A stretch of 64,000 nucleotides of DNA from the NCBI GenBank assembly GCA_951812585.1, contig OX638318.1:2106380-2170379 (forward strand). The letters are read 5' to 3'. The notes beneath the pieces are model-generated. The model did not search any database and had not been told where the DNA came from. It saw only the letters and a program-made list of their open reading frames with translations. How positions within the stretch are numbered: position 1 is the stretch's first letter; every line of letters begins with the position of its first letter. This stretch comes from Rhodothermales bacterium. Its GTDB lineage: Bacteria > Bacteroidota > Rhodothermia > Rhodothermales > Bin80. Shown piece by piece: positions 10,050 to 52,191 of the stretch. The translations under genes and the position numbers were made by a program.

Positions 10050-10345
10050 CATGTGTGACGAAGGCGCAGCATCAAAAACTGGACGGCCTGTTCCTTCACC
10101 TGGCCTGGCTGCGTAACCACTTGTTGGCGTATTGCAGCGTATTGCGGCGTATTGCAAGAGCGCGTACAGAGCCGGGCGCAAGCATCCGACCTTCTACGAC
10201 CTGTGCAAGTACCTGACGAAGCGCCGACAAGGTCAGGGGGCGGTCTTGCTCAGAGACCAAAAGCCAAGGATGGATAGCCCGGATACGCTGCCGATCTCAA
10301 TGCAAGTCCAGCAGCAAACGCGGCTTAACTTGTGCAGGCACGGCC
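10050..10345 (+). pseudogene. tnpB: TnpB (IS200/IS605 OrfB) N-terminal remnant
   Basis: One frame reads TKAQHQKLDGLFLHLAWLRN then HLLAYC. After a local triplication of GCGTATTGC (10129-10156) another frame reads AYCKSAYRAGRKHPTFYDLC then KYLTKRR. A third short piece near 10290 reads DTLPISMQVQQQ. Together they follow the TnpB N-terminal pattern (YPTxxQ...L...F...R..N.AL...Y..G...S..DL...LTKLK ... LPSQVLQQALRDL). The nuclease domain is missing entirely. Confidence 0.6.
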
Positions 10346-10646
10346 ACCCGATATCCAGGTCCCGGTCCCGTCCCACAACCAACCCGGCGAACGCCCCGCC
10401 AGATGCACCATTGCACAATCTCGTCACCCTTTCCGGGCCCAGCAGCATGAACTCCGACGCTATTGTGCACCTTAGTACTTTCTGATCTGGCAGACCCCGC
10501 AAGGACTGCTGCGCCATGACTACGCCGCTAGCGGCTTGCTGGGCCATGCCATGCCCATGCCGATGCTGATCCGTTCTCGGACCTACGACCAGACGTCCTT
10601 TGGCGAAATGCGCAGCCAGACGGGGGTTGCCGATGAGGACCTGGCC
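10346..10646. other. Unassigned DNA between the TnpB remnant and the ferredoxin gene
   Basis: Plus-strand translation near 10540-10640 gives MPMPMLIRSRTYDQTSFGEM and then TGVADEDLALVLG before a stop. It looks like the tail of a real protein, but I do not recognise it and its beginning is missing. Confidence 0.35.
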
Positions 10647-13560: not shown

Positions 13561-14901
13561 CTACTGCGCTCCGACCACATCCTGGTAGATGGCAGCCATG
13601 GCATTCCCGACGTACTTGGCGACGATCCGTCCATCAGGACCCACCAAGAAGCGGGTGGGCAACACATTGATGTTGTACAAGAGTGCCAGGCCCGGCGGCC
13701 TGGGCACATGGCGGCCCGGAATATCCCGCGAATCAAAGAATGCCTCGTCTACAAGCGGATCAAGCGCCATGGAGATGGATACGATCTCCAGGCCCGCCGC
13801 ATCGTCGTAGAGCCTGCGCCGCCCCTCCAGTTCGCGCTCGTAGACGTCATCCTGCGGATGGTAGAACTCCAAAAGCACATGCTGTCCACGAAATTGCGCG
13901 AGGTGCAACGAATCTCCCGCCGCATCGCGCACAGAAAAGAGCGGCGCGAGTTTGCCCGGAATGAGGTTCTCCAGCTCATAGATCGCGCGCGTACCCCAGT
14001 CGGCATAGGGCGAATCCGCATAGGCCTCCTTAAACGAAAGTGCCGCTTCCATCGCCGCGTCATGCTGCATGCTGTCCAGCCGCGCGGCAATGATCTCGAA
14101 CGCCAGCGCGGCGCGATGCTCTTCAGTGGTGGCGCGCGTCGCAAACTCCTCCAGCAAAGCAATCGCGGCTTCCTGTCCGGCAAGCCGTGCCTGTGCGGTG
14201 CGCGCAGCCTGGGCGATCTCCACATAGTTGATATTCTCCGGTTCAATCTCTCTCGCGCGTGCAAGCGCTAACGAATCATTCCAGTTGGTGACCATCGATA
14301 CGGCTTCAGCCGCCGCCAGCTCGCTGCCCATCGTGCCGCCAAAGGTGCTGCGCATGCCCCAGAGAATCATGCTGGTCTGGTGAACCAGATCGGACACGGC
14401 AGATTCGTTGTATTCGCCGCTTTGCACCAGCTCCAAAAGGCTTTGGCGGTGCAAGGCTGTCGTGTTTTCATAGGCCAGCCAGGCGGAGTTCTCCTTGGAG
14501 CGGACGCGCAGGGGCCGGTTGCCCATAGGCAATACTGCCGTCAGGGATGCCGTATCCGCGTGAGCAACTGCCAGCACCCCCACCTTCAGAATCTGGCCCC
14601 GACGACTGATCAAAAGCGAATACCGACCGCGCACCGGTGCGACCACATCCATATTGAATGCTCCAGTACTGTCGGTGATGGCGTAGCCCAGCGTGTCCGG
14701 CTCGCCATCGGCATCGACCGCTACCAGCACCTCGAAGCCCCGATAGTCCTGCGTAGCATCGACCAGGGCATCGACCGTTATGGTGCCCGTGAATACGCTG
14801 CGGACCTCGGCGCGCTCCGTCGCGGCTTCCTGCTGTGCACATGCGGGCAGCGTGAGGCAGCCCACAATGATCAGCACGAGATACCTGGGGTTCAGAATCA
14901 T
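13561..14901 (-). CDS. TlpA-like thioredoxin-fold lipoprotein without the CxxC
   Basis: 446 aa. The signal ends in a lipobox (LTLPAC). About 270 residues of alpha-helical sequence follow (GMRSTFGGTMGSELAAAEAV, AQARLAGQEAAIALLEEFAT), then an AhpC/TSA-TlpA domain: FSVRDAAGDSLHLAQFRGQH, VLLEFYHPQDDVYERELEGR, INVLPTRFLVGPDGRIVAKY. In the position of the redox WCxxC there is YHPQDDVY, so thiol-disulfide activity is not expected. The family (TlpA/thioredoxin-like DUF4369 type) is common in the Bacteroidota envelope. Its ATG overlaps the gatB stop by 3-4 bp, so it is co-translated with gatB. Confidence 0.78.
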   Translation of the reverse strand: MILNPRYLVLIIVGCLTLPACAQQEAATERAEVRSVFTGTITVDALVDATQDYRGFEVLVAVDADGEPDTLGYAITDSTGAFNMDVVAPVRGRYSLLISRRGQILKVGVLAVAHADTASLTAVLPMGNRPLRVRSKENSAWLAYENTTALHRQSLLELVQSGEYNESAVSDLVHQTSMILWGMRSTFGGTMGSELAAAEAVSMVTNWNDSLALARAREIEPENINYVEIAQAARTAQARLAGQEAAIALLEEFATRATTEEHRAALAFEIIAARLDSMQHDAAMEAALSFKEAYADSPYADWGTRAIYELENLIPGKLAPLFSVRDAAGDSLHLAQFRGQHVLLEFYHPQDDVYERELEGRRRLYDDAAGLEIVSISMALDPLVDEAFFDSRDIPGRHVPRPPGLALLYNINVLPTRFLVGPDGRIVAKYVGNAMAAIYQDVVGAQ

Positions 14902-21328: not shown

Positions 21329-22483
21329 ATGAAACTATTCCCATGTCATCTGAATGCCGAAAGCCTATTCCGGCTTACCATTGCTATCCTATTGTGCGCG
21401 CTGTTGGCGGCATGCTCAAAGGATTCAGGGAAGGCATCCAATTCAGAATCCATACCCCAAGTAGTACTCGTCCCAGCACTCACAATTGGTAGTGAAACAA
21501 GCGTGGACGGGGTACTTTTTGGCCATATTGGCGACTTGGTTGCGGTCAATAGCACCGGGAGTATTTACGTCGGTGATAGACAGGCCTCTACTATCTACGC
21601 CTTTACCGCGCAGGGAGAACTGATTGATGAAATTGGTCAGCAAGGGGAAGGGCCAGGCGAATTCGCGAGACTCAGCACAATTCGCATAGGCCCTAGCGAT
21701 ACGCTTTATGTGTTTGATTCTCAAGTCGACCGCATTTCAGCCTTTGAACCGACAGGGCACAGTTTCGCCTATGGATTTAAGGTATCGGAAGACTCGAGGG
21801 GAGGTCGGCCGGATCAGTTCGTCGGCGTACTGGACACGGGGTTCCTCATTACATGGGTAGAGGATCCAAGTATAAAAGACGGCGCAGGTCTAACGGAGCT
21901 CTATGTCTCCGCAAGACGCGTAAGCTGGGCAGGACTGCGTGTTCAGAATCCACTGGTGCGACTGCTTGGCAAGAGTTGGTTGGTTGCGGGAACTGAAAAT
22001 GGCTTCACGGTATCAGCCATTCCATTTGGACCCGAACCGTTCATTCACCTAGGGCCGGGCGGGCACGTTTACTCTGGTTCAAATGCATCTGTTGACGTTG
22101 CGATTACAACAGCCAGCGGCGTGCCCATAGGCTCCATTACTCACGAACTGGAGGCGATTCCCGTGATGTCAGCCGAGCTTGAAGAGTATCTGGATTATTT
22201 CTCCAGTGACAGAGCAGAGAGGCTCCGGCCCTTCACCCCAAAGGCCAAGCCAGCATACTCATCCTTTATCGTTGACGACGAGGGTCGCATCTGGGTCAGG
22301 CTTACACCAGCAGATTACGAAGCCGACACCTCTTCTTGGTTGATTCTGGACACAGAAAGCCGAGTTCGTGGTCAGGTAATCCTCCCATCATCCGTGAGAT
22401 TGGAGGTCATTGCCGCGGGACGGGCATACGCCACAAGCAGCGCCGATGGGGTTACCCTTGAAGTCTTTGAAATCCAGGAATAG
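21329..22483 (+). CDS. 6-bladed beta-propeller lipoprotein
   Basis: 384 aa with a lipoprotein signal (IAILLCALLAACSKDSG). The body shows the repeated blade pattern ending in the family signature: GSIYVGDRQASTIYAFTAQG, ELIDEIGQQGEGPGEFARLS, TLYVFDSQVDRISAFEPTGH. Such propellers are abundant in Bacteroidota and lie on the outer face of a membrane; they are thought to bind ligands or peptides, but no activity is established. The gene stands alone between an IS3 remnant and DNA with an IS1595 remnant, and has lower GC than the core genes. Related genes here are 5036-5486 (broken) and 48312-49400. Confidence 0.85.
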   Translation: MKLFPCHLNAESLFRLTIAILLCALLAACSKDSGKASNSESIPQVVLVPALTIGSETSVDGVLFGHIGDLVAVNSTGSIYVGDRQASTIYAFTAQGELIDEIGQQGEGPGEFARLSTIRIGPSDTLYVFDSQVDRISAFEPTGHSFAYGFKVSEDSRGGRPDQFVGVLDTGFLITWVEDPSIKDGAGLTELYVSARRVSWAGLRVQNPLVRLLGKSWLVAGTENGFTVSAIPFGPEPFIHLGPGGHVYSGSNASVDVAITTASGVPIGSITHELEAIPVMSAELEEYLDYFSSDRAERLRPFTPKAKPAYSSFIVDDEGRIWVRLTPADYEADTSSWLILDTESRVRGQVILPSSVRLEVIAAGRAYATSSADGVTLEVFEIQE

Positions 22484-41172: not shown

Positions 41173-44007
41173 ATGAGATCAACACTTTTGATGCTCATGT
41201 GTCTCGGGGTCTGTATCGAGGCACCGGCGCAACCTGGAGCGTACGATGTACTGGTCTTTTCCAAGACAGAGGGATTCAGACACAGTTCCATAGAGCCCGC
41301 CATAGCGGCGCTTAAATCACTGGGTGACGAGGCCGGATTTGCCGTCGTAGCAACGGAGGACGCGGCGGTTTTTGCGCCCCCTTTCTTGGGAGGCTTTGAA
41401 GTGGTGGTATTCCTGAACACCACGCTGGATGTGCTCGACAGCTTGCAGCAGGTTGCGTTTCAGTCGTACATCAGGGCCGGGGGCGGCTTTGTCGGCATCC
41501 ATGCCGCGGCAGATACGGAGTACGATTGGTCCTGGTACGGGGAACTGGTGGGTGCGTATTTTGAGAGTCATCCGCCGGTGCAGCCCGCGGAGGTGCTGTT
41601 CACCGACCGCGCGCACCCTGCTACGGCGTCATTGCCGCTGCGCTGGCAGCATACCGATGAGTGGTACAACTACGACATCAATCCGCGGGCCGATGTCCAT
41701 GTGGTGGCCGTGGTGGATGAACGGACCTACGAAGGCGGCACCATGGGGCATGACCATCCCATCGCCTGGGCGCACGAGTTTGAGGGCGGACGTGCCTTCT
41801 ATACCGGGCTCGGGCACACGGCCGAGAGCTACAGTGAACCTTTGATGCTTCAGCATCTTCGGGGAGCCATCGCGTGGGCGGCAGGCCGGCAGGCGGCCGA
41901 CACCTGGGCCACGCGCAGCGCGGCCTACGATGAGGTGATTCTAACGGGTGAGCTGACCGACCCGATGGAGATTGACATCACTTCCGATGGGCGCGTGTTC
42001 ATCATCGAATGGGCCGGTGCCATCAAGATCTGGGAGCCGACAACGAGCAAGATGCGCGTAGTTGGCTGGTTGCCTGTTGAGAAGGACATCGAAGATGGCC
42101 TCCTGGGGCTGGCGCTGGATCCGGGCTTCGACAATAACCAGTGGCTGTACATCTATTATTCCCCGGTTACCGAGGGGGCCAAGTTCAATCGCCTTTCCCG
42201 CTTTTACTATGATGGCCACATGGTAGATATGGACAGTGAAATCGCTGTCCTGGAGATCCCGGTCCAGCGCGTCCAATGCTGCCATTCGGGTGGTTCCATT
42301 CAGTTCGACAAAGACGGGCTGCTTTACCTGTCGACGGGAGACAATTCGGGTGGTGCGCGTGATCACGCGGACTTGACCCGGCGCCGGCACGCAGATCAGG
42401 GGCGGACCAGCGCCAACACCAACGACCTGCGCGGCAAGATTCTGCGTATTCGCCCGGAGCCTGACGGCACCTACTCCATCCCTGAAGGCAACCTTTTCAA
42501 GGCGGACGCGCTGCACCGCGGCGAGATCTGGTCTATGGGGCATCGCAATCCCTTCAGGATCTCCATTGACGACAGCACCGGGTGGGTGTACTGGGGCGAT
42601 GTTGGTCCAGGGACGCCGGGCGGATGGGACGAGTTCAATCAGGCGCAGCAGCCCGGCTATTTCGGTTGGCCGTTGTATACCGGGTACAACGATCTGTACC
42701 CTGACTATTATGCCTTTGGTGTGGAGGCACCCGAGCCCGATCCTTCGGCTCCCGTGAATCTGTCGTCTTTCAACACGGGTGCCAAGGCGCTGCCACGGGC
42801 GGAGCCGGCATGGATACGCTATTTCTACGGGCCCTCGGAAGAGTATCCGGAGCTTGGTGCGGGAGGACTCAATCCCATGGCAGGCCCAACCTTTCACTAC
42901 GACGCGCAAACCGCGCATCCGAACGCGCTGCCCCCCTACTACGACAACAAGGTGCTGATCTACGAGTGGATGCGCAACTGGGTCCAGGTCGTCACCCTGC
43001 ATGACGATGGCAGCGTGCTGAGTATTGATCCCTTTCTGCCCGGTTTCGATTACATCAGCCCCATGGATATCGAGGTGGGGCCGGACGGCCGGCTCTACAT
43101 TGTCGAATGGGGAGACGAGTTCTGGGGCAGCAATGCGAACGCGCAGCTGGTTCGCCTGGACTATTTCGGGGGCTTGATCCGTCCCGCTTTGCGCATGACT
43201 ATCCGACGCGCATCGCACGGTGCGGTCGAGATTGCGTGGCCGCCAGACGGGGGCATCTTCGACTTTGAGTCTGCCCTCACGTACGAGGTTGCAGTAAGCG
43301 ATCAGGCCTTGGCTGATCAGACGGAGGTCCGAACCTTTACGGGCTTCGACACTTCGCCCTACCCGTTGGAAACCATGCAGGGCACGCACGGCACGTTTGT
43401 GATCACGCGCGCCTACACGCATTCGCCCGATGTCCACTATGTCGACCGCTTTGCGGAGGTGGAGGCGTGTCTTCAGCGCCTTTGCGACCGCATGCGGCTG
43501 CAGCCCCGCACGAAGGAAGCAGAACACACTTCGGGCGGCAAGAACGCCGTGCGAAAGACCTATTCCGCGCGGCCTGCGAGCGAACACTGGGGCCGTACTG
43601 CTCTGACCGTTATGCAGGTAGCAGCGGAGTCTGTCCTGGAGTACGCTCCGCTCAACCTCCACGGGATTGACTCGCTCTCGATTCGTTTCAGAGCTTCGGC
43701 CGCCGGTATCATCCGCCTCCGTCGTCACCGGACAACCCCGTTGGCCCGGGTCGCGGTAGGCCCGGAAGCAGGCATGCCGGTTCGTCCGCATCAGGCGGAT
43801 TACCTGGCGGGTGTACCGGAAGGTGCGTCTGGGCTGGGGCAGCTGGAGGATGGAGCGTACGAGCGGTGGCGCGAGATTACTGTGCCGGTCAATGATCCGG
43901 GAGATACCTTTACCTTGGTGGTGGACTTTGAAACGGAAGCCGAGAAGACTTTTCTGGAGATCGACTGGATCCGCTTTCACGGGACGGGCGTTCACCAGCA
44001 GCCTTAA
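41173..44007 (+). CDS. Secreted ThuA + glucose/sorbosone dehydrogenase + CBM-like protein
   Basis: 944 aa, signal peptide ending IEAPAQ. Residues 25-240 form a ThuA (trehalose-utilisation) domain: VLVFSKTEGFRHSSIEPAIA, GGGFVGIHAAADTEYDWSWY, GHDHPIAWAHEFEGGRAFYT, GLGHT. Residues 250-680 are the PQQ-type glucose/sorbosone dehydrogenase propeller: DITSDGRVFIIEWAGAIKIW, GLLGLALDPGFDNNQWLYIY, CCHSGGSIQFDKDGLLYLST, NDLRGKILRIRPEPDGTYSI, RNPFRISID. The last 150 residues (LNLHGIDSLSIRFRASAAGI) look like a CBM6-type sugar-binding module. It starts 6 bp after the DUF1080 gene. It likely oxidises sugars outside the cytoplasm and passes electrons to the respiratory chain. Confidence 0.92.
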   Translation: MRSTLLMLMCLGVCIEAPAQPGAYDVLVFSKTEGFRHSSIEPAIAALKSLGDEAGFAVVATEDAAVFAPPFLGGFEVVVFLNTTLDVLDSLQQVAFQSYIRAGGGFVGIHAAADTEYDWSWYGELVGAYFESHPPVQPAEVLFTDRAHPATASLPLRWQHTDEWYNYDINPRADVHVVAVVDERTYEGGTMGHDHPIAWAHEFEGGRAFYTGLGHTAESYSEPLMLQHLRGAIAWAAGRQAADTWATRSAAYDEVILTGELTDPMEIDITSDGRVFIIEWAGAIKIWEPTTSKMRVVGWLPVEKDIEDGLLGLALDPGFDNNQWLYIYYSPVTEGAKFNRLSRFYYDGHMVDMDSEIAVLEIPVQRVQCCHSGGSIQFDKDGLLYLSTGDNSGGARDHADLTRRRHADQGRTSANTNDLRGKILRIRPEPDGTYSIPEGNLFKADALHRGEIWSMGHRNPFRISIDDSTGWVYWGDVGPGTPGGWDEFNQAQQPGYFGWPLYTGYNDLYPDYYAFGVEAPEPDPSAPVNLSSFNTGAKALPRAEPAWIRYFYGPSEEYPELGAGGLNPMAGPTFHYDAQTAHPNALPPYYDNKVLIYEWMRNWVQVVTLHDDGSVLSIDPFLPGFDYISPMDIEVGPDGRLYIVEWGDEFWGSNANAQLVRLDYFGGLIRPALRMTIRRASHGAVEIAWPPDGGIFDFESALTYEVAVSDQALADQTEVRTFTGFDTSPYPLETMQGTHGTFVITRAYTHSPDVHYVDRFAEVEACLQRLCDRMRLQPRTKEAEHTSGGKNAVRKTYSARPASEHWGRTALTVMQVAAESVLEYAPLNLHGIDSLSIRFRASAAGIIRLRRHRTTPLARVAVGPEAGMPVRPHQADYLAGVPEGASGLGQLEDGAYERWREITVPVNDPGDTFTLVVDFETEAEKTFLEIDWIRFHGTGVHQQP

Positions 44008-44060
44008 CGCAGCGTGACCACCAGAGCGCTGCAAGCAAATCCAAGCAAAGCAAGCAAACG

Positions 44061-44969
44061 ATGAATCATTCCTTCACCCGTCGCAGCTTCCTGCAGACTT
44101 CCGCCTTGGCCGCTGTCGGTCTGGGCCTTTCCGGGCGCATTGCCGCGAGGCCGCGTCCGCTCTTCAAGATCTCTCTTGCCCAGTGGTCGTTGCACCGCTC
44201 CTTGTTTGATGGCAAGATTGACAACTTGGACTTCGCCCAGGTAGCCGCGGATGCCGGCATCCACGGCTTGGAATACGTTAACCAGTTCTTTATGGACAAA
44301 GCGGAAGACGAGGCCTACTTGGCGCAGATGAAGGCACGTGCTGAAGATGCAGGTTCTGAGAGCATTCTCATCATGTGTGACCGTGAGGGCCGCCTGGGTG
44401 ATCCGGATGCCACGAAGCGCAAGGAGTCGGTTGAACGGCATTACAAGTGGGTCACTGCGGCCAAGTTTTTGGGTTGTCATTCCATTCGCGTCAACGGCTA
44501 CAGCGCGGGCTCTGCTGAGGAGCAGATGAAGCTCGTTGCTGATGGCTTGCATCAGCTATGCCGCTTTGGCGATGAGCACGGGTTGAATGTGATCATCGAA
44601 AATCATGGTGGCTATTCCAGTAACGGCCAGTGGCTTGCCCAGACGATTGAGCTGGCGGATCACCCGCGGGCGGGAACCCTTCCCGACTTTGGCAATTTCC
44701 GCATCAGCCAGGACGAGACCTATGATTCCTATCGGGGCGTCCAGGAGCTGATGCCCTATGCGAAGGGGGTCAGTGTCAAGACCGTCGTCCAGGACGACCA
44801 TGGCAACGCCAGCCCGCTGGATTACATGCGCATGATGCGCATCGTGGTCAATGCCGGCTGGACCGGCTATTGTGGCATTGAGCACGGGCCCGAGGGTCGC
44901 GAGGTGGAAGGCATTCTTGAAGTCAAGGCCGAGCTCGAAGCCGTGCGCGAGAAGCTTGCGGCGGATTAG
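44061..44969 (+). CDS. Tat-exported sugar phosphate isomerase/epimerase-family protein
   Basis: 302 aa. The Tat signal TRRSFLQTSALAAVGLGLSG has no lipobox, so the product is soluble and periplasmic. The TIM barrel matches the same family as 34602: KISLAQWSLHRSLFDGKIDN, LDFAQVAADAGIHGLEYVNQ, LNVIIENHGGYSSNGQWLAQ, YMRMMRIVVNAGWTGYCGIE. The metal-binding Glu in VIIENHGG, Asp in TLPDFGNFRI and Glu in GIEHGPEGRE are present. It closes the sugar locus, 53 bp after the ThuA gene. It is not a recent duplicate of 34602, as the sequences differ widely. Confidence 0.92.
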   Translation: MNHSFTRRSFLQTSALAAVGLGLSGRIAARPRPLFKISLAQWSLHRSLFDGKIDNLDFAQVAADAGIHGLEYVNQFFMDKAEDEAYLAQMKARAEDAGSESILIMCDREGRLGDPDATKRKESVERHYKWVTAAKFLGCHSIRVNGYSAGSAEEQMKLVADGLHQLCRFGDEHGLNVIIENHGGYSSNGQWLAQTIELADHPRAGTLPDFGNFRISQDETYDSYRGVQELMPYAKGVSVKTVVQDDHGNASPLDYMRMMRIVVNAGWTGYCGIEHGPEGREVEGILEVKAELEAVREKLAAD

Positions 44970-45416: not shown

Positions 45417-46106
45417 TTAGTCGGCGTCGCGAAGAGCGCGCTGTAGAATGGAGTCTAGCTCATTAGAAGTCATGAGTCCAGTGTACACTGTGCCATTTAC
45501 GATCAACGTTGGGATACCATTAATTCCAAACATGTTAGCCATAGCCATGTCAGCCTTCACTTTTGGTGCTGGGCGAACGGCAGATACGCAATTACTGAAA
45601 CGCAGCAAATCGGGTAGTCTTGCCATTTGGGCCAACAAATTCCAATCTACACTGTCAGGCAACAGTGGCTGATTTGCAAATAACATGTTGTGATACACCT
45701 TGAAATAGCCCTGATTGGCAGCGCATTCGGCTGCTATCGCGGCATCATAGGCGGCGATGTGGTAGAATGCTGGGTAGTGCCGATAAATCAGCGTGATATC
45801 CTCCGAATAGCGCTCTTCAAGAGCACTCAGCATCGGCTGAAGCTCACCGCAGAAGGGACACTCGTAGTCAAAGTACTCTACAACCGTCACAGGCCGTGCG
45901 GCAGCAGCTTCATATTCCACATGACTCTCCGACAACACCTGCCACACTGAGTCCGACAGGACTCGATCAGGCTCTCGCTCGGATACCTGACCCAAGAACA
46001 ACTCGCGCCGAACAAGCAGAGCGGTGATGACCACAGCACAAGCCACCATCACTATCACTAGTAAGATCTTGAAAGTCTGCATTAAGTTCACGGATTTAAG
46101 AACCAT
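45417..46106 (-). CDS. Membrane-anchored DsbA-family thiol oxidoreductase
   Basis: 229 aa. One N-terminal membrane helix (FKILLVIVMVACAVVITALL) is followed by a DsbA-like thioredoxin domain with active site CPFC in VVEYFDYECPFCGELQPMLS, a helical insert (LIYRHYPAFYHIAAYDAAIA) and the cis-Pro loop NMFGINGIPTLIVNGTVYTG. Two further cysteines (AAECAANQG, FSNCVSAV) may form a structural disulfide. It acts on protein thiols in the periplasm. The start is at 46106 or at the Met at 46082. It uses more AT-rich codons than the core, sits between a broken partition operon and a truncated IS, and was probably acquired. Confidence 0.88.
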   Translation of the reverse strand: MVLKSVNLMQTFKILLVIVMVACAVVITALLVRRELFLGQVSEREPDRVLSDSVWQVLSESHVEYEAAAARPVTVVEYFDYECPFCGELQPMLSALEERYSEDITLIYRHYPAFYHIAAYDAAIAAECAANQGYFKVYHNMLFANQPLLPDSVDWNLLAQMARLPDLLRFSNCVSAVRPAPKVKADMAMANMFGINGIPTLIVNGTVYTGLMTSNELDSILQRALRDAD

Positions 46107-46139
46107 GGGTGTTCCTTGAAGCGTAGATGACCAGCACTG

Positions 46140-47162
46140 GCACCTCCATCCAGCCCACTACGTATCGGCTGTAGATATCCAGCATTTCGAACAGCTTATA
46201 GCTGCTCCACTTCTGCGGTCCGCGCAGCTTGGTGATGTCCCAGGACCAGACCTTGTTGGGAACGGCAGCCAGCAGCTCCGGCTTCTTGTACGGGGAATGA
46301 ACACGTTGATTGCGGCGCGCTCGCACTTCGTCGTACTCGTGGAGGATGTTGTACATCGTGCGCCAATAGCACACATAGGGGCCTTCGTTCAGGAGCGTGG
46401 CATAGATCTGCCGTGGGGGCAGGTCCCTGAACCGCTCCGAGTTCAACAGTGCGCGAATCTCCGCTCGTTGCGCCGCTGGCAATCGGCGAAGGCTTCGTCC
46501 ACGCCGCTGCTTCGGCGGCCTGGGCCCCGGCGCCTGTATGCTGGGGTAGTAGGTCGAACGAGGAATACCTACGACCCTGCAGGCGGGGGCCACACCAAGA
46601 TCCTTTGCCAACAGCTTCACTGCCGCGATCTTCATGGGCCTTCGCTGTCCTGGATCCCGATCCCAAAGGTGCTCGAGATCTTTTTTGAACGTCAATGATC
46701 CGCTCGGCCTTGCCGCGTTTGCTCCTCAGGCCTTCGATCGTCCTGTGAGCAGCTTCCAGCTGGGCTTCCAGTAAGGCTACTACTTCGTCGTCGCCCCGTT
46801 TGACGGTGCCCAGTCTGCCCTCGCTGCGCTGCTTACGCCACTGCGAGAGATGGGACGAATAGAGTCCCTCCCTGCGCAGCAGTGCGCCAACGGCCGTGCC
46901 GCCCGTGCATTCATCCGCTTCCCGGAGAATTCGCAGCTTGTACTGGGCGGAGAATCGGCGGCGACGATCGCGTGGAACCACCTCTGTGGCGGACGCTTCA
47001 GGCGCCCCATTCGTGAGCGTAGTCGGGTCGTTTTTCATGGCAGGAAAAGGATTACGTTAGGGGTTACGTTGCACTCTAGCCTGGCTCTTCGCGCCATCAG
47101 CTGATAACGCAACTCACTAACTCCGACTCCAAAGTGTCCAAGGAAATATATGCACAGGGGGT
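46140..47162 (-). mobile_element. IS3-family element, copy B, truncated
   Basis: Nearly identical to the corresponding part of 50250-51279. It contains all of orfA (47038 down) and the first 160 or so codons of orfB, ending near 46140 inside the DDE domain; the frame then runs 14 codons into flanking DNA. The slippery run has 6 A here (46681-46686) instead of 7 in copy A, so orfA now runs out of frame to 46196 and cannot shift normally into orfB. Only the first catalytic Asp (WSWDITKLRGP) remains. It is inactive. Confidence 0.85.
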
Positions 47163-47226
47163 CTTTCCCGGTCTGGAGAGCGGTCTTGAGCCTATCCGGC
47201 GTCTTGTACTCACCGAGCATCTTCAC

Positions 47227-47743
47227 AACGTCGTCTAGCGTTACAAGCCCGTCAGGCTTGCGGGCAGCCGCAGCTGGAGGGATGGGCGTGCGGAGGTGAG
47301 GGTTCCGACTATCGGGTGGGGTGTGATCGGACAGGCTTTCGCGCTGGTTACAGGCGCTTCCAGGTCCGGACCATCAGCCGCGCTGCCCCCCCCCCCCCCT
47401 CACGGCCGAGCAACTCCATGATCTCGCTGAACTGCCTGACCAGGTAGAGACGCCAGTCCCCACAGGCGCGCAGATCAGCGCCAGAGACACTGTCAGATGG
47501 GTGGGATGCGTGTGTAGTCCGTGCATAGAAAACAGAATAGACATATGTGGAAAATGGCTCCATCATCTAACTGTTTCTGCCTTTTAACAACTAAGAATGG
47601 TGCACCGCCCACTGAGTTTCGCAGACACCTTGATGCGCAAGCTAGGGTTTCAAGCGTATCCGTGTATGATGAATGTCAATACTGACTTGGCGGAGAGATT
47701 CGACCAAGACAAATGGCAACCTAAGCTGCAAGGTGTGGTCTGA
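47227..47743 (-). other. Accessory DNA with unrecognised broken reading frame and a G14 tract
   Basis: The minus strand has protein-like pieces: LRACGDWRLYLVRQFSEIME then LLGRE running into a 14-G tract (47386-47399), and, in another frame, DGLVTLDDVVKMLGEYKTPD then RLKTALQTGKDPL, which runs into the IS3 end at 47162. They may be one gene disrupted by tract-length change and by the IS. I do not recognise the family. Confidence 0.4.
47386..47399. repeat. Homopolymer tract of 14 C (G14 on the minus strand)
   Basis: Fourteen consecutive C inside a minus-strand open frame (47348-47566), encoding glycines. It is the same length as the tract at 8889-8902. The sequence around it does not match the first tract. 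Confidence 0.9.
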
Positions 47744-48325
47744 CTACTGCAGCGCAGGCGGATTGAGCGCTGTCGTCGACGGGTTTAAGACGTGCGTGAT
47801 GACCTGAGACTCGACCAGCACCACCTGCGGCGTTTGAATGCCCATGGCCCGCAGGTTGAAGTCTGGGTCTTGCGACACGATGAAGGGGAATGGAGCTTTG
47901 CTCACACGCCGTAAGATCAGCGACTCGTAGGCACCCTGCTCTACGCCCAACAAAGGATCAGCGTAGATAGCCAGTACAGGGTAGTCCTGCAGCCCCGTTG
48001 CTGCCTGCTGCTCAGACCAGTAGCGGAGCAGCGTAACCTGGTCGGCCGAGCAGCCCACTCCACCCAGCAATATTACGACCGCCGTATCCGGCACGGCCCA
48101 TCCCTGTTCAGCCAGCGGGGCGCGGGACTGCGCTTCGAGGAGCTCGTCGACGGGGAGCGTAAGTCCCAGGAGTGCTGACGCATCAGGCAAAGATACCGAC
48201 GAGGTGAAGCGTGGTTGTGGACTCGAGTTCACAAGCCATGCCCGTATACCGGTGAGCGCCGCCAGTGCTAGCAAGAATGGCAGTGCAAACCACAGGGAGG
48301 TTCGAAACCAGCTACTCATCGGCAT
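47744..48325 (-). CDS. Membrane-anchored thioredoxin-fold-like protein
   Basis: 193 aa: one N-terminal helix (FRTSLWFALPFLLALAALTG), then a periplasmic domain with VVILLGGVGCSADQVTLLRY, DYPVLAIYADPLLGVEQGAY and PQVVLVESQVITHVLNPSTT. GxxGC after a buried strand and a final strand pair resemble AhpC/redoxin-like proteins, with a single cysteine at the start of the first helix. That is a tentative fold call. It overlaps the end of the beta-propeller gene upstream by 14 bp, so the two are co-translated and probably act together in the envelope. Confidence 0.6.
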   Translation of the reverse strand: MPMSSWFRTSLWFALPFLLALAALTGIRAWLVNSSPQPRFTSSVSLPDASALLGLTLPVDELLEAQSRAPLAEQGWAVPDTAVVILLGGVGCSADQVTLLRYWSEQQAATGLQDYPVLAIYADPLLGVEQGAYESLILRRVSKAPFPFIVSQDPDFNLRAMGIQTPQVVLVESQVITHVLNPSTTALNPPALQ

Positions 48326-49400
48326 CCGTGGGTTGAATGAATTTGTACCGGACGATAACAGGGTTGCCTACCTCGCCATCAGGCAACGATTCGTTGTCTC
48401 CCACGCTATGGAAATAGCCGTAGCCTGCTGCTTTTGGGATAACAGTAGACAGCGTGCTGCGAGCAGGAAACCGACTGACATTACTCACAACACCGAGGCC
48501 TACGAATCTCTGTGTGTCTGAATGCCATTTGTCTCTCAAGTTGCTATAAACTACCATACGCGTTAGGCTATCAATCCTAAAAACCCCATAGTTCGTGGGA
48601 TATGCCCGGATCTCTGCTTGTGCCTCCATTGGAGTGAGGTTTCGGCGAAGGTCTTGCTGCCTTTTCACAAAAAAGGGAGGATGCGCCTGTGCTATTTCAG
48701 CATAGGTGCGTACGGGTTTGGCGTCCTCACTTCCCAGATACGTGTAGTATGGCCCGTCATCAAAGCACTCAAAGGTGCGCCCCGCATAACCATGCCGCCC
48801 GAGGTTGAGTTGGCGGAATTCAGGCTTCTCCACGCGTGTTTTGCCAAGCCTCTCCAATGCAGTAGAATACACTACAGCGTCAGACCCTTGGGGAGGACCG
48901 ACCATGGTCAGCACGTGGATAGAATCATCTTTTGCGCAAAAGGCAGTGAAGGAGTCCGGCAATCTTCTGCTGGCGGCAATGCAGTTGCCAGCAGCGTCAA
49001 ATACTACTACCGGTCCACCCATGGTCATAGCCATGATTCGATCCCCATCGATGAAGCGCGAGCTCCAAGGGACGAATTCCGCTACATCAGGCAGGCATTT
49101 AGGCACCGAGTAGGCCCTCATATACTCCCCAGAGGCCGAAAATCGGTATACACTCTTTGTGATCATATCGGACACCAGGAGGTGCCCCTCCTGATTGACA
49201 TCCAGAAACATGATCATGCCAACCACGATAGACGGATCCAATCGGACGGTATCCTCCAAAGCAAATAGTTCATCGAAAGGAACTAATGGTGAATCAATAA
49301 TGTGTCTGCGTGGTGCATCGGAAGAAGTGCATCCGACCGCAAGGAAAGCTAGCAGCAGCACCAACAACCTCGCGCGCGACCAAGGGGATAGATCCGTCAA
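48312..49400 (-). CDS. 6-bladed beta-propeller-like lipoprotein
   Basis: 362 aa from the TTG at 49398-49400 (the frame is open to 49556). A lipoprotein signal (RARLLVLLLAFLAVGCTSSD) sits right after this start. The body has propeller-like strands: VVGMIMFLDVNQEGHLLVSD, MITKSVYRFSASGEYMRAYS, FIDGDRIMAMTMGGPVVVFD. A later segment is AEIRAYPTNYGVFRIDSLTR. This is the architecture of the 21329 gene, though the GEGPGEF signature is lost. It pairs with the thioredoxin-fold gene that overlaps its stop. Substrate unknown. Confidence 0.7.
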   Translation of the reverse strand: MTDLSPWSRARLLVLLLAFLAVGCTSSDAPRRHIIDSPLVPFDELFALEDTVRLDPSIVVGMIMFLDVNQEGHLLVSDMITKSVYRFSASGEYMRAYSVPKCLPDVAEFVPWSSRFIDGDRIMAMTMGGPVVVFDAAGNCIAASRRLPDSFTAFCAKDDSIHVLTMVGPPQGSDAVVYSTALERLGKTRVEKPEFRQLNLGRHGYAGRTFECFDDGPYYTYLGSEDAKPVRTYAEIAQAHPPFFVKRQQDLRRNLTPMEAQAEIRAYPTNYGVFRIDSLTRMVVYSNLRDKWHSDTQRFVGLGVVSNVSRFPARSTLSTVIPKAAGYGYFHSVGDNESLPDGEVGNPVIVRYKFIQPTDADE

Positions 49401-49752
49401 TGGGCGAAGGACACACCAGACCCAAGCGGTACCCGGTGACCCGATCTCTTCTGAAATGTGGACAGCCCTGCCCGCGCGGCACCCAAATACCGGTTGCAAG
49501 ATCATAGCTGATACACGCTTGTTAGGAGGTTCTATTCTTGCATGGACGGTAGCCACCTCAGACTAGCAAACCTTCCGAAGGTACGTGGCTAGGGGCGTAC
49601 CCTCTGAGAGCTTCCCCCACAATCCAAGCTGATAGCGATTCGGTGCGATAGGGGCCGCATACGGTATGTGCCAACCGAAATGATGCACTTTAGCGTAGTT
49701 AGCGTAGGCTAAGTTCCACGTTAAATCGGGCAATGTTTTGCGGCTGAGCGTG

Positions 49753-50751
49753 TTAGGTAGTGTGTTTGGGCTTGTTGATCCATACGGCTCTTAGCGGCAT
49801 CGGTATGCGTGGTCTGCCACCCAAGAAGTGTTCCGGGTGTTGTGCGTAGGCCGCGTCCATGACTTGCTGACGGGCAACTCTGACGGCTTCGGTATGGCCG
49901 TAGTGCACAGTCAGGGGGTGCATGAGCCCAAGGTCGGAGTGGTAGAACATCTCGTTGTACCATGCGAAGAACCATCGGGCCCATTGCTGGGCATCCTCCA
50001 GAGATCCGAACCGCCTCGGGTACAGGTGAGGATACTGGGCGGTCCGGAATAGGGCCTCCGAGTACGGGTTATCGTTCGACTGGTACGGTCGCGCATAGGA
50101 GCGCGTGACGCCCAGCTGCCCCAACAACTGGATGTAGGTCCGGGCGGTCATGGGCGCGCCCCGGTCCGTGTGAACCGTGGGTGGATCGGCTGTGACCCCT
50201 TGGCGCTCGCAGGTGGTCACGACCAGATCGGCCGCCAGATCAGCCGTCTCGTACGGGGCCACCATCCAGCCCACCACGTACCGACTGAAGATATCTACGA
50301 TCACGTAGCACTTGTAGTAGGTCCCTTTTCGGGGACCGCGCAGCGTGGTGATGTCCATGGACCAGACCTGGTTGGGGGCCGTGGCCACCAGCTCCGGCCT
50401 GGTGTAGGGCGGGTGTACCCGTTGATTGCGGCCCGCTCGCACTTCGTTGTACTCGTGGAGGATGTTGTACATCGTGCGCCAATAGCACACATAGGGGCCT
50501 TCGTTCAGGAGCGTGGCATAGATCTGCCGTGGGGGCAGGTCCCTGAACCGCTCCGAGTTCAACAGTGCGCGAATCTCCGCTTGTTGCGCCGCCGGCAATC
50601 GGCGAAGGCTTCGTCCACGCCGCTGCTTTGGCGGCCTGGGCCCCGGCGCCTGTATGCTGGGGTAGTAGGTCGAACGAGGAATACCTACGACCCTGCAGGC
50701 GGGGGCCACACCAAGATCCTTTGCCAACAGCTTCACTGCCGCGATCTTCAT
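49753..50751 (-). CDS. IS3-family transposase OrfB
   Basis: 332 aa from MKIAAVKLLAKDLGVAPACR. The HTH_21-like part (VVGIPRSTYYPS, RDLPPRQIYATLLNEGPYVC) precedes the DDE integrase core: WSMDITTLRGPRKGTYYKCY (D), PTVHTDRGAPMTARTYIQLL (D), QSNDNPYSEALFRTAQYPHL (E). The end, YNEMFYHSDLGLMHPLTVHY, is complete, so the enzyme looks intact. It starts by overlapping the orfA stop (ATGA) but is normally made as an OrfAB fusion by frameshifting. Confidence 0.95.
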   Translation of the reverse strand: MKIAAVKLLAKDLGVAPACRVVGIPRSTYYPSIQAPGPRPPKQRRGRSLRRLPAAQQAEIRALLNSERFRDLPPRQIYATLLNEGPYVCYWRTMYNILHEYNEVRAGRNQRVHPPYTRPELVATAPNQVWSMDITTLRGPRKGTYYKCYVIVDIFSRYVVGWMVAPYETADLAADLVVTTCERQGVTADPPTVHTDRGAPMTARTYIQLLGQLGVTRSYARPYQSNDNPYSEALFRTAQYPHLYPRRFGSLEDAQQWARWFFAWYNEMFYHSDLGLMHPLTVHYGHTEAVRVARQQVMDAAYAQHPEHFLGGRPRIPMPLRAVWINKPKHTT

Positions 50752-51155
50752 GGGCTTTCGCTGTCCTGGATCCCGATCCCAAAGGTGCTCGATATCTTTT
50801 TTTGAACGTCAATGATCCGCTCGGCCTTGCCGCGTTTGCTCCTCAGGCCTTCGATCGTCCTGTGAGCAGCTTCCAGCTGGGCTTCCAGTAGGGCTACTAC
50901 TTCGTTGTCGCCCCGTTTGACGGTGCCCAGTCTGCCCTCGCTGCGCTGCTTACGCCACTGCGAGAGATGGGACGAATAGAGTCCCTCCCTGCGCAGCAGT
51001 GCGCCAACGGCCGTGCCGCCCGTGCATTCATCCGCTTCCCGGAGAATTCGCAGCTTGTACTGGACGGAGAATCGGCGGCAGCGAGCGCGTGGAACCACCT
51101 CTGTGGCGGACGCTTCAAGCGCCCCATTCGTGAGCGTAGTCGGGTCGTTTTTCAT
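50748..51155 (-). CDS. IS3-family transposase OrfA (helix-turn-helix)
   Basis: 135 aa. RRFSVQYKLRILREADECTG, GTAVGALLRREGLYSSHLSQ and WRKQRSEGRLG form the HTH_Tnp_1-type DNA-binding domain, followed by a leucine-zipper-like coiled coil (VALLEAQLEAAHRTIEGLRS). It binds the element ends and supplies the N-terminus of the OrfAB transposase through the frameshift at 50797-50803. Confidence 0.93.
   Translation of the reverse strand: MKNDPTTLTNGALEASATEVVPRARCRRFSVQYKLRILREADECTGGTAVGALLRREGLYSSHLSQWRKQRSEGRLGTVKRGDNEVVALLEAQLEAAHRTIEGLRSKRGKAERIIDVQKKISSTFGIGIQDSESP
50797..50803 (-). promoter_or_regulatory. Programmed -1 frameshift site (A7 slippery run)
   Basis: The coding strand reads GTTCAAAAAAAGATATC. 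A -1 slip on the seven A continues in the orfB frame as DIEHLWDRDPGQRKPMKIAA, fusing OrfA to OrfB. This is the usual IS3 arrangement. Copy B has A6 at the same place and has lost it. Confidence 0.75.
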
Positions 51156-51285
51156 GACAGGAAAAGGGTTACGTTAGGGGTTACGTTGCCCTCTAGCCTG
51201 GCTCTTCGCGCCATCCGCTGATAACGCAACTCACTAACTCCGACTCCAAAGTGTCCAAGGAAATATATGCACAGGGGGCTGCCTC

Positions 51286-51420: not shown

Positions 51421-52191
51421 GTGACACACCTTATACATACTGCCGCTGTTCGTGCGGTTGCCCTGTTCGCTCTTGTGTTGATGCCACTTGCTGCCTCAGC
51501 GCAAGAAGGGGTGGTGCGCTATAGCCATACTTCGCCGATTCTGTATGGAGCACCAGACCCAATCAAAGAATCGATTGCGGCGGCGGACGGTACGGAGTAT
51601 ACCCAGGGGCCTAGCCATGCAACTGTGCCCAGGCAGTTGGTCTTCGGCCCATTATCCTCCCTCATGTATCCTGCTGTCAATCAGATCGTGGTGCCCGGTG
51701 ACCGGACGGGGTGGGAGTATATTGATACGACGTATGTCAGCTTCGAAGACGGCACGTACACGGAATCACGGGAATTCTATGCTGACATGTACCTCGTTGA
51801 GGGCGAGCGGCCCGTAATATCCTGGCGCTTGCCCGGCGAGGAGCGTATCTATCTCGGTCACCGCGTCGTGAAGGCAACGGCGGTGGTGGATTCCGCGGTC
51901 GTTGAAGCCTGGTTTACACCCGAGATATCGGTGCCGGCGGGGCCGGGCTTGTATGGTGGCCTGCCGGGACTCATCCTTTTGGTGACCAATGCAACGATCG
52001 GGGAAGTGTATGCGGCAGAATCCGTTGGTCTGGGCGAACAGCCCCCGATCACGGCGCCGATCAGCGGGCGTGTGGTTTCCGACGATAAGTACGATCAGAT
52101 AAAGAGGGCAGGTATGGCGGAGGATGAGCGCTTTCAGAGCTGGATGCGGCGCGGTATAGAAGAGGGTCGGGTGAAGATCAGGAGGCAATGA
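51421..52191 (+). CDS. GLPGLI-family secreted protein
   Basis: 256 aa with a Sec signal (VALFALVLMPLAASAQ). The signature is AWFTPEISVPAGPGLYGGLP followed by GLILLVTNA; the YGGLPGLIL string defines the family, which is confined to Bacteroidota and relatives. Upstream it has QEGVVRYSHTSP, and SWRLPGEERIYLGHRVVKAT, the usual strand before the signature. Function is not known. These genes commonly sit next to an outer-membrane receptor-like gene, and here a truncated one follows at 52454. The start at 51421 (GTG) is the first in frame before the signal. Confidence 0.85.
   Translation: MTHLIHTAAVRAVALFALVLMPLAASAQEGVVRYSHTSPILYGAPDPIKESIAAADGTEYTQGPSHATVPRQLVFGPLSSLMYPAVNQIVVPGDRTGWEYIDTTYVSFEDGTYTESREFYADMYLVEGERPVISWRLPGEERIYLGHRVVKATAVVDSAVVEAWFTPEISVPAGPGLYGGLPGLILLVTNATIGEVYAAESVGLGEQPPITAPISGRVVSDDKYDQIKRAGMAEDERFQSWMRRGIEEGRVKIRRQ

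Follow-up and report, generated by a model that had tools for sequence, protein, structure and literature searches.

Two incomplete copies of a recurrent peptide-propeller-thioredoxin-fold cassette at IS3 edges in a Rhodothermales genome

In methylamine dehydrogenase, a cysteine-rich small subunit sits on a propeller subunit, and the small subunits of TTQ dehydrogenases carry two conserved tryptophan residues. The mau cluster (MauA, MauB, MauD, MauE) brings together a cysteine-rich small exported protein, a propeller partner and a thioredoxin-like protein, as does the cassette described here in its intact form. The neighbourhoods of the NVEALA peptides (PF14055), on which a search by name found nothing in the openly licensed literature, are similar as well: a small exported cysteine-containing peptide is encoded directly before a propeller lipoprotein. 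In the Bacteroidales-like genome G329, each of the six NVEALA peptides found (6/6) is followed by a propeller of PF17170, PF15869 or PF13970, and one of these units also has a CTSC thioredoxin-like lipoprotein and a signal peptidase I. Finally, for candidate RiPP families that decRiPPter proposed in Streptomyces, homologues of mauE, and in one case of mauD, are reported next to precursors that have eight or more cysteines; the likeness is one of gene content, and the passages on these families mention no propeller (PMC7794033).

We have analysed a stretch of 64,000 nucleotides from a Rhodothermales bacterium, the window, to which all coordinates without a contig name refer. The anatomy of the region is well supported: two incomplete copies are left here of a recurrent cassette, the genes of which encode a small exported peptide rich in cysteines, a beta-propeller and a thioredoxin-like protein. 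This cassette is apparently undescribed, and we found no description of it in the openly licensed literature. The propeller and the thioredoxin-fold protein of the window are the last two genes of cassette I, which is repeated in one Rhodothermales family (f1, to which the window belongs), and the DsbA-like gene nearby belongs, as judged from its sequence context, to cassette II, the propeller of which is of another type. Here, the peptide gene is gone from cassette I and the propeller from cassette II, and both losses lie at the edges of IS3 elements.

The last gene of cassette I (47744..48319, minus strand; open reading frame to 48325) was assigned by structure search and family alignment to the type I thioredoxin-fold proteins; the protein is membrane-anchored by a hydrophobic helix at its N-terminus and has a single active-site cysteine (GGVGCSADQ). 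The structure prediction suggested for this frame by the sequence-only reading gave a fold of the thioredoxin/peroxiredoxin kind (mean pLDDT of 78 in AlphaFold; probability of 1.00 in Foldseek), which is of the peroxiredoxin/ResA/CcmG type (VIA Z 9.0-9.6 against ResA, CcmG and Prx chains). As modelled, the protein shares its fold with TlpA, ResA, CcmG and the 1-Cys peroxiredoxins, and it has the redoxin fold of a TlpA/MauD-type oxidoreductase but not the CXXC: it differs from TlpA, ResA and CcmG in that CSx[DN]Q replaces this motif and that searches of Pfam and NCBIfam gave no match. Its frame is overlapped by 8-14 nt by that of the type I beta-propeller lipoprotein (48312..49556, minus strand), which carries the lipobox-like LLVLLLAFLAVGC and the start of which is uncertain, comparison with the orthologue L181 of the same-genus genome G001 (80% DNA identity) placing it at 49505. 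The window propeller itself has no Pfam match at E<=1 and thus does not reach PF17170; its distant homologues are PF17170-like, with L201 scoring 24.1 bits against a cut-off of 22.9. The structure model of the propeller is poor (pLDDT 57.6), and its best Foldseek matches, NHL/WD40-type propellers, speak for the general fold only. The BtuG and NHL structures among these matches were not counted as evidence for a family.

The pairing of the two genes is conserved. Propeller/thioredoxin-fold paralogue pairs occur at four other places in the same genome, always in the same order, which is more than chance. In 26 of 32 distinct loci bearing the thioredoxin-fold gene a propeller lies just upstream; the other six have none, and each of these loci breaks off within 309 nt upstream of the gene. 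This tally is based on 33 chosen loci, of which L021 has no thioredoxin-fold gene and stands outside the 32; duplicates from named records (L059-L064, L066), duplicates of loci from the window's own genome and matches without a fetched locus are excluded. The type I propeller profile also matches the propellers of G022 and G142 (E 6e-46 and 9e-44), and the order peptide, propeller, thioredoxin-fold protein is found in the distant G022 and in four genomes of family f26. The sequence-only reading was right in taking the propeller to be co-translated, and the two genes form a conserved unit; envelope thiol chemistry has likewise stood as its context.

The DsbA-like thiol oxidase (45417..46082, minus strand) is the survivor of cassette II. 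Its open reading frame spans 45417-46106, and the start was set at 46082 by aligning the junction with the own-genome locus L151. The protein has an N-terminal membrane anchor and a YECPFC motif, matches Pfam Thioredoxin_4 (E 1.2e-22) and scores above the curated cut-offs of both PF13462 (81.3 bits, cut-off 23.2) and PF01323 (43 bits, cut-off 25.6), so that Pfam scores and translation confirm its initial annotation as a DsbA-like enzyme with CPFC. We have read its close homologues at eight loci (L105-L112) and at L029 of the same genome: at L105, L106, L107, L111 and L029 they lie directly after type II propellers, at L108 a piece of a propeller lies about 0.7 kb upstream, and at L109, L110 and L112 no propeller was recognised upstream. 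The sequence-only reading had joined the DsbA-like protein, the thioredoxin-fold protein and the propeller in one periplasmic thiol/ligand system. The three genes do share a strand and together span no more than 4.2 kb; however, the DsbA gene is preceded by the tail of another propeller, and no DsbA homologue occurs in any propeller/thioredoxin-fold locus examined outside the window, each with 1.5 to 10 kb of flanking DNA, or in the 12 kb downstream of the thioredoxin-fold orthologue in a same-genus genome (L182). Thus, as far as examined, the trio never co-occurs elsewhere, and a single system of the three genes is highly improbable.

The tail in question is a remnant of 46083..46145 (minus strand), which by alignment with L151 comprises the 3' end of the type II propeller of cassette II (about 11 codons, frameshifted) and the spacer before the DsbA gene: positions 46031-46146 align in 118 columns, at 76% identity, with the junction between propeller stop and DsbA start at L151 (C1:1189250). 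At this point begins copy B of an IS3-type element (46146..47161, minus strand), recognised by similarity to other copies (94% to 50259-51278 of copy A, 98% to C1:721877-722893). The element does lie between the genes, as first described, but it is cut short: the part equivalent to about 49661-50258 of copy A is missing, and with it the C-terminal part of the transposase. The other loss is found at copy A (49661..51278, minus strand; orfA 50748-51155, orfB 49753-50751), the orfB of which matches Pfam rve and the edge of which is set by the homology that IS3 copies elsewhere share from about 49658-49661. This element occupies the place expected for the peptide gene of cassette I. At the orthologous locus of G001 the peptide gene is retained, and homology of the window to G001 ends 9 nt past the peptide stop codon, at the start of copy A; what is left is an inter-genic remnant before the propeller (49557..49660, minus strand), the alignment of which with L077 of G001 starts directly after that stop codon. 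A search of 49301-49760 for a relic of the peptide found none. The idea that IS elements have damaged the locus was therefore correct, but it was not a trio that they split: one cassette lost its peptide gene, the other its propeller. IS activity can thus make parts of two systems resemble one.

Where it is intact, the peptide has a Sec-type signal or anchor and a mature part of about 45-60 residues with eight cysteines (9 of 11 peptides) or seven (2 of 11). The peptide profile has 24 matches in 10 of 119 genomes, 13 of them outside the seed alignment, and all 24 lie directly before a propeller. This is the architecture of the NVEALA units, of which the window copy has only the part without the peptide. 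The Rhodothermales peptides differ from NVEALA peptides in having more, strictly patterned cysteines, and only the G329 region showed a signal peptidase I and DUF1573. Membership by sequence was rejected: PF14055 matched neither three of the peptides nor the own genome or the other f1 genomes sampled. Moreover, profile-profile comparison gave no significant link of the f1 peptides, propellers or thioredoxin-fold proteins to their G329 NVEALA counterparts, and the relation is therefore architectural. Many type II propellers have no recognisable cysteine-rich peptide (a crude filter recognised one for 4 of 35 propeller matches in the regions scanned). Several peptide frames are frameshifted, both in MAGs and in this genome. 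These points, like the poor propeller model and the missing profile links, count against the explanation that we favour below.

The peptides are present in multiple divergent copies (28-47% identity to the first row of the alignment), their dN/dS is 0.62-0.65 in two pairs, and the gene missing from the window is retained in the same-genus relative. These features would suit a secreted antimicrobial, bacteriocin-like peptide or a signalling peptide, with the propeller as its receptor, immunity or export partner, the thioredoxin-fold protein protecting or folding it, and the paralogues reflecting rivalry between strains. However, a reading of the open reading frames listed beside the cassettes turned up neither an ABC transporter for export nor an immunity gene, and the thioredoxin-fold protein is more strongly constrained (dN/dS of 0.16 between the window and G001). 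We regard this reading as unlikely.

As an explanation of the whole cassette, we lean slightly towards the idea that the peptide is folded by the thioredoxin-fold protein, aided by MauE in genomes that have it, and then docks on the propeller. The gene order, its conservation, the cysteine pattern, the fold of the thioredoxin-fold protein and the two losses are what the analysis shows; the transfer of disulfides, the docking and the function in the organism are what we infer from them. In an intact cassette, a small exported peptide with eight cysteines is encoded first, a beta-propeller lipoprotein of the 6-bladed type second, and last a thioredoxin-fold protein with a membrane anchor, which resembles redoxin/TlpA proteins in cassette I and DsbA in cassette II. 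Upon export, the disulfides of the peptide would be made or shuffled by the thioredoxin-fold partner, and in lineages keeping CXXC a membrane protein of the MauE type would re-oxidise this partner. The folded peptide would then be captured by the propeller in a peptide/propeller complex, laid out much as methylamine dehydrogenase is, with its cysteine-rich small subunit and its propeller subunit.

The distribution of the active-site cysteines bears on this mechanism. The CSAD of the window protein is typical of its family: in 24 of the 25 f1 thioredoxin-fold proteins read (L058 and one L200 frame were unreadable), the second cysteine is replaced by D or N. CXXC is found in L023, G037 and f26; the proteins of distant relatives mostly have it, often with a MauE gene. 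MauE-type proteins (PF07291) lie near the f26 cassettes (E 5e-23 and 1e-21 in the two scanned) and behind a propeller fragment in G037, and they are absent from the window genome (G000) and from 15 of 16 f1 genomes. Given the single cysteine and the absence of MauE, classical disulfide transfer is doubtful in f1. MauE beside the f26 cassettes, and the company of a cysteine-rich small protein, a propeller and a thioredoxin-like protein, might also point to a redox enzyme that consists of a small subunit and a propeller and is matured by proteins of the MauE/D type, as methylamine dehydrogenase or some other dehydrogenase with a cofactor would be. We regard this as improbable: the distant propeller homologues match PF17170 in Pfam and not the methylamine dehydrogenase heavy chain, the window genome has no MauE, and the peptide alignment has no conserved tryptophan column and hence no TTQ site.

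Extending the idea of a folded and docked peptide beyond this family, we tentatively propose that Bacteroidota/Rhodothermota possess an undescribed and widespread class of surface systems: a hypervariable peptide, exported and rich in cysteines, would be folded by a dedicated thioredoxin-fold protein (with MauE) and handed to a propeller lipoprotein of its own. Such systems may have come about with no fewer than two enzymes, one redoxin-like and one DsbA-like, and one family may have passed from CXXC to a single cysteine along with the loss of MauE. Such a view would bring several families of unknown function under one testable hypothesis, namely NVEALA peptides, DUF5128/TolB_like propellers of the 6-bladed kind and orphan thioredoxin-like and MauE-like proteins, and the single cysteine accompanied by the absence of MauE would be a natural experiment on the decay or re-purposing of a disulfide pathway.

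The window contains another propeller, an orphan of type II (21329..22483, plus strand; PF17170, 50.6 bits) behind a broken IS3 element. With 28-33% identity to DsbA-linked propellers, it is possibly the former partner of the DsbA-like protein. An inversion of 22484-46106 might have separated the two, but no IS repeat pair supports it, and the remnant tail before the DsbA gene resembles L151. A repeated fragment with a poly-C run (47395..47609) is 92% identical to C1:1646401-1646620.

The 3.2-Mb single-contig genome that carries the window (C1:2106380-2170379) encodes there, as the sequence-only reading had described, a DsbA-like protein (45417-46082), a thioredoxin-like (Trx-like) protein (47744-48325) and a beta-propeller (48312-49556), and only the DsbA-like protein has a Pfam match. 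The proposal that the three form one periplasmic thiol/ligand system was not supported: the propeller and the Trx-like protein belong to one type of cassette (type I), whereas the DsbA-like protein belongs to another (type II). Behind the propeller/Trx pair stands a larger, apparently undescribed cassette; since both copies in the window are broken, the window is a poor site for its study.

The pair recurs as a unit. In the same genome, propeller paralogues occur in five further places (35-48% identity), plus two weak ones, and Trx-like paralogues in four places (51-69% identity), always in the order propeller, Trx. A Trx profile matched 11 genomes (119 relatives searched, own genome included): 10 of the 16 in f1, the window's own family, plus G037 from a different family. 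The propeller gene lies immediately upstream in 26 of the 32 distinct Trx-bearing loci examined, often overlapping by a few bases; in the remaining six, the contig ends at most 309 nt upstream. Named records with relatives of the pair are MAGs that bear the title 'Rhodothermales bacterium' or, in one case, 'Bacteroidetes bacterium'.

Many type I propellers are preceded by a small ORF encoding a hydrophobic leader and a Cys-rich tail with a CLYC-like end, frameshifted in some copies. Past residue 35, nine of 11 aligned peptides have eight cysteines and two have seven. A peptide profile matched 24 places in 10 of the 119 genomes, exclusively in f1, and a type I propeller follows at all 24; 13 of these matches lie outside the seed, whose 11 members had been picked for preceding propellers. 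Three scanned peptides had no Pfam or NCBIfam match above cut-off, the best sub-threshold match being Pfam RET_CRD (E 0.0037). Near-identical peptide/propeller units stand in tandem elsewhere in the genome (L023:5498-8989, about C1:1993500-1997000).

The window has lost this peptide gene. The orthologous propeller of the same-genus genome G001 (80-82% DNA identity) is preceded by an unbroken peptide ORF of 119 aa, for which no counterpart was found in the window. Homology to G001 extends from the propeller back to 49661, a position equivalent to 9 nt beyond the stop codon of the G001 peptide, and at this very base starts the minus-strand IS3 copy A (49661-51278; edge placed where other copies of the IS begin to match). 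The IS may have deleted the peptide gene or have inserted once the gene was already gone. Comparison with G001 gave dN/dS values of 0.16 for Trx and 0.56 for the propeller; therefore, both genes have been under constraint. The 12 kb downstream of the G001 Trx orthologue, on a different contig from the propeller, contain unrelated genes and no DsbA. Window positions 47395-47609 and 51715-52033 both match another locus of the genome (C1:1640000-1652000; 92% and 76-83%), and 51421-52191 encodes a Porph_ging-type protein.

DsbA homologues have a different neighbour: in L105, L106, L107, L111 and the own-genome locus L029 they are directly preceded by a PF17170-type propeller, unlike type I. In front of the type II propeller of L107 lies a CC-rich small peptide of a second kind, and L105 has one in the same position, as a separate ORF. 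In the own-genome locus L151, APVLVAYA forms the C-terminus of a type II propeller and a degraded DsbA start comes next; the window matches this junction (76% over 118 columns) exactly at the end of the shortened IS3 copy B (46146-47161, minus strand). Since an L151-like junction adjoins the IS and DsbA homologues follow type II propellers, we conclude that the DsbA gene of the window is left over from a type II cassette that has lost its propeller. A possible former partner of the DsbA gene is the type II PF17170 propeller at 21329-22483, which stands without DsbA; it immediately follows a broken IS3 transposase and has 29 matches in its own genome and 48 in G009. Further Cys-rich small ORFs, mutually different and with hydrophobic leaders, directly precede type II propellers in L147, L152, L156 and L165.

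The AlphaFold model of the Trx-like protein has a thioredoxin-type fold (pLDDT 78), with peroxiredoxins, ResA, CcmG and Sco as Foldseek and VIA-align neighbours (best E 4.8e-5, best Z 9.6). The active site reads CSAD; C-S-x-[D/N]-Q is present in 24 of 25 readable f1 proteins, the odd one being L023 with CSPC. G022 has CYPG, and CXXC is present in G037 (2/2) and in another family, f26 (6/6 read). MauE (PF07291) was not found in 15 of 16 f1 genomes, nor in G022; G037 has it behind a propeller fragment. Over a small number of independent lineages, active-site type correlates with MauE presence; L023 is an exception.

Among 395 genomes sampled from the phylum, a wider Trx profile matched 11, including G022 and four of f26. 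All five regions fetched (G022 and the four f26 genomes) have the order peptide, propeller, Trx, and the type I propeller profile matches the G022 and G142 propellers (E 6e-46 and 9e-44). Multi-TM proteins with a DCGCFG motif occur in all four f26 regions; the two scanned are MauE matches, and the others are termed MauE by resemblance. In two f26 regions, MauE and the peptide gene are separated by a large membrane protein (L202:7032-8858, L203:1728-3554), Wzy_C/O-antigen-ligase-like by scan in L203 and by resemblance in L202. NVEALA (PF14055) had any match in three of 296 genomes sampled, over cut-off in one. In G329, which we read from its NVEALA proteins as belonging to Bacteroidales, all six NVEALA peptides precede a propeller-like lipoprotein ORF, and these propellers match PF17170, PF15869 or PF13970. 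The G329 array (L101) also contains signal peptidase I (13835-14725) and DUF1573 (10183-10536) genes.

Next to the directly established gene order, conservation, cysteine content, Trx fold and losses, a mechanism can be proposed: Sec would export the peptide, the Trx protein and MauE would form or shuffle its disulfides, and the peptide would dock on the propeller. The nearest known layout is presumably that of methylamine dehydrogenase maturation; the family tests for TTQ enzymes were negative. According to PMC7794033, MauE and MauD mature methylamine dehydrogenase and are linked to precursors containing eight or more cysteines. Elsewhere in the window, at 41173-44969, a single protein combines ThuA and glucose/sorbosone dehydrogenase domains, followed by a TAT-signal xylose-isomerase-like protein.
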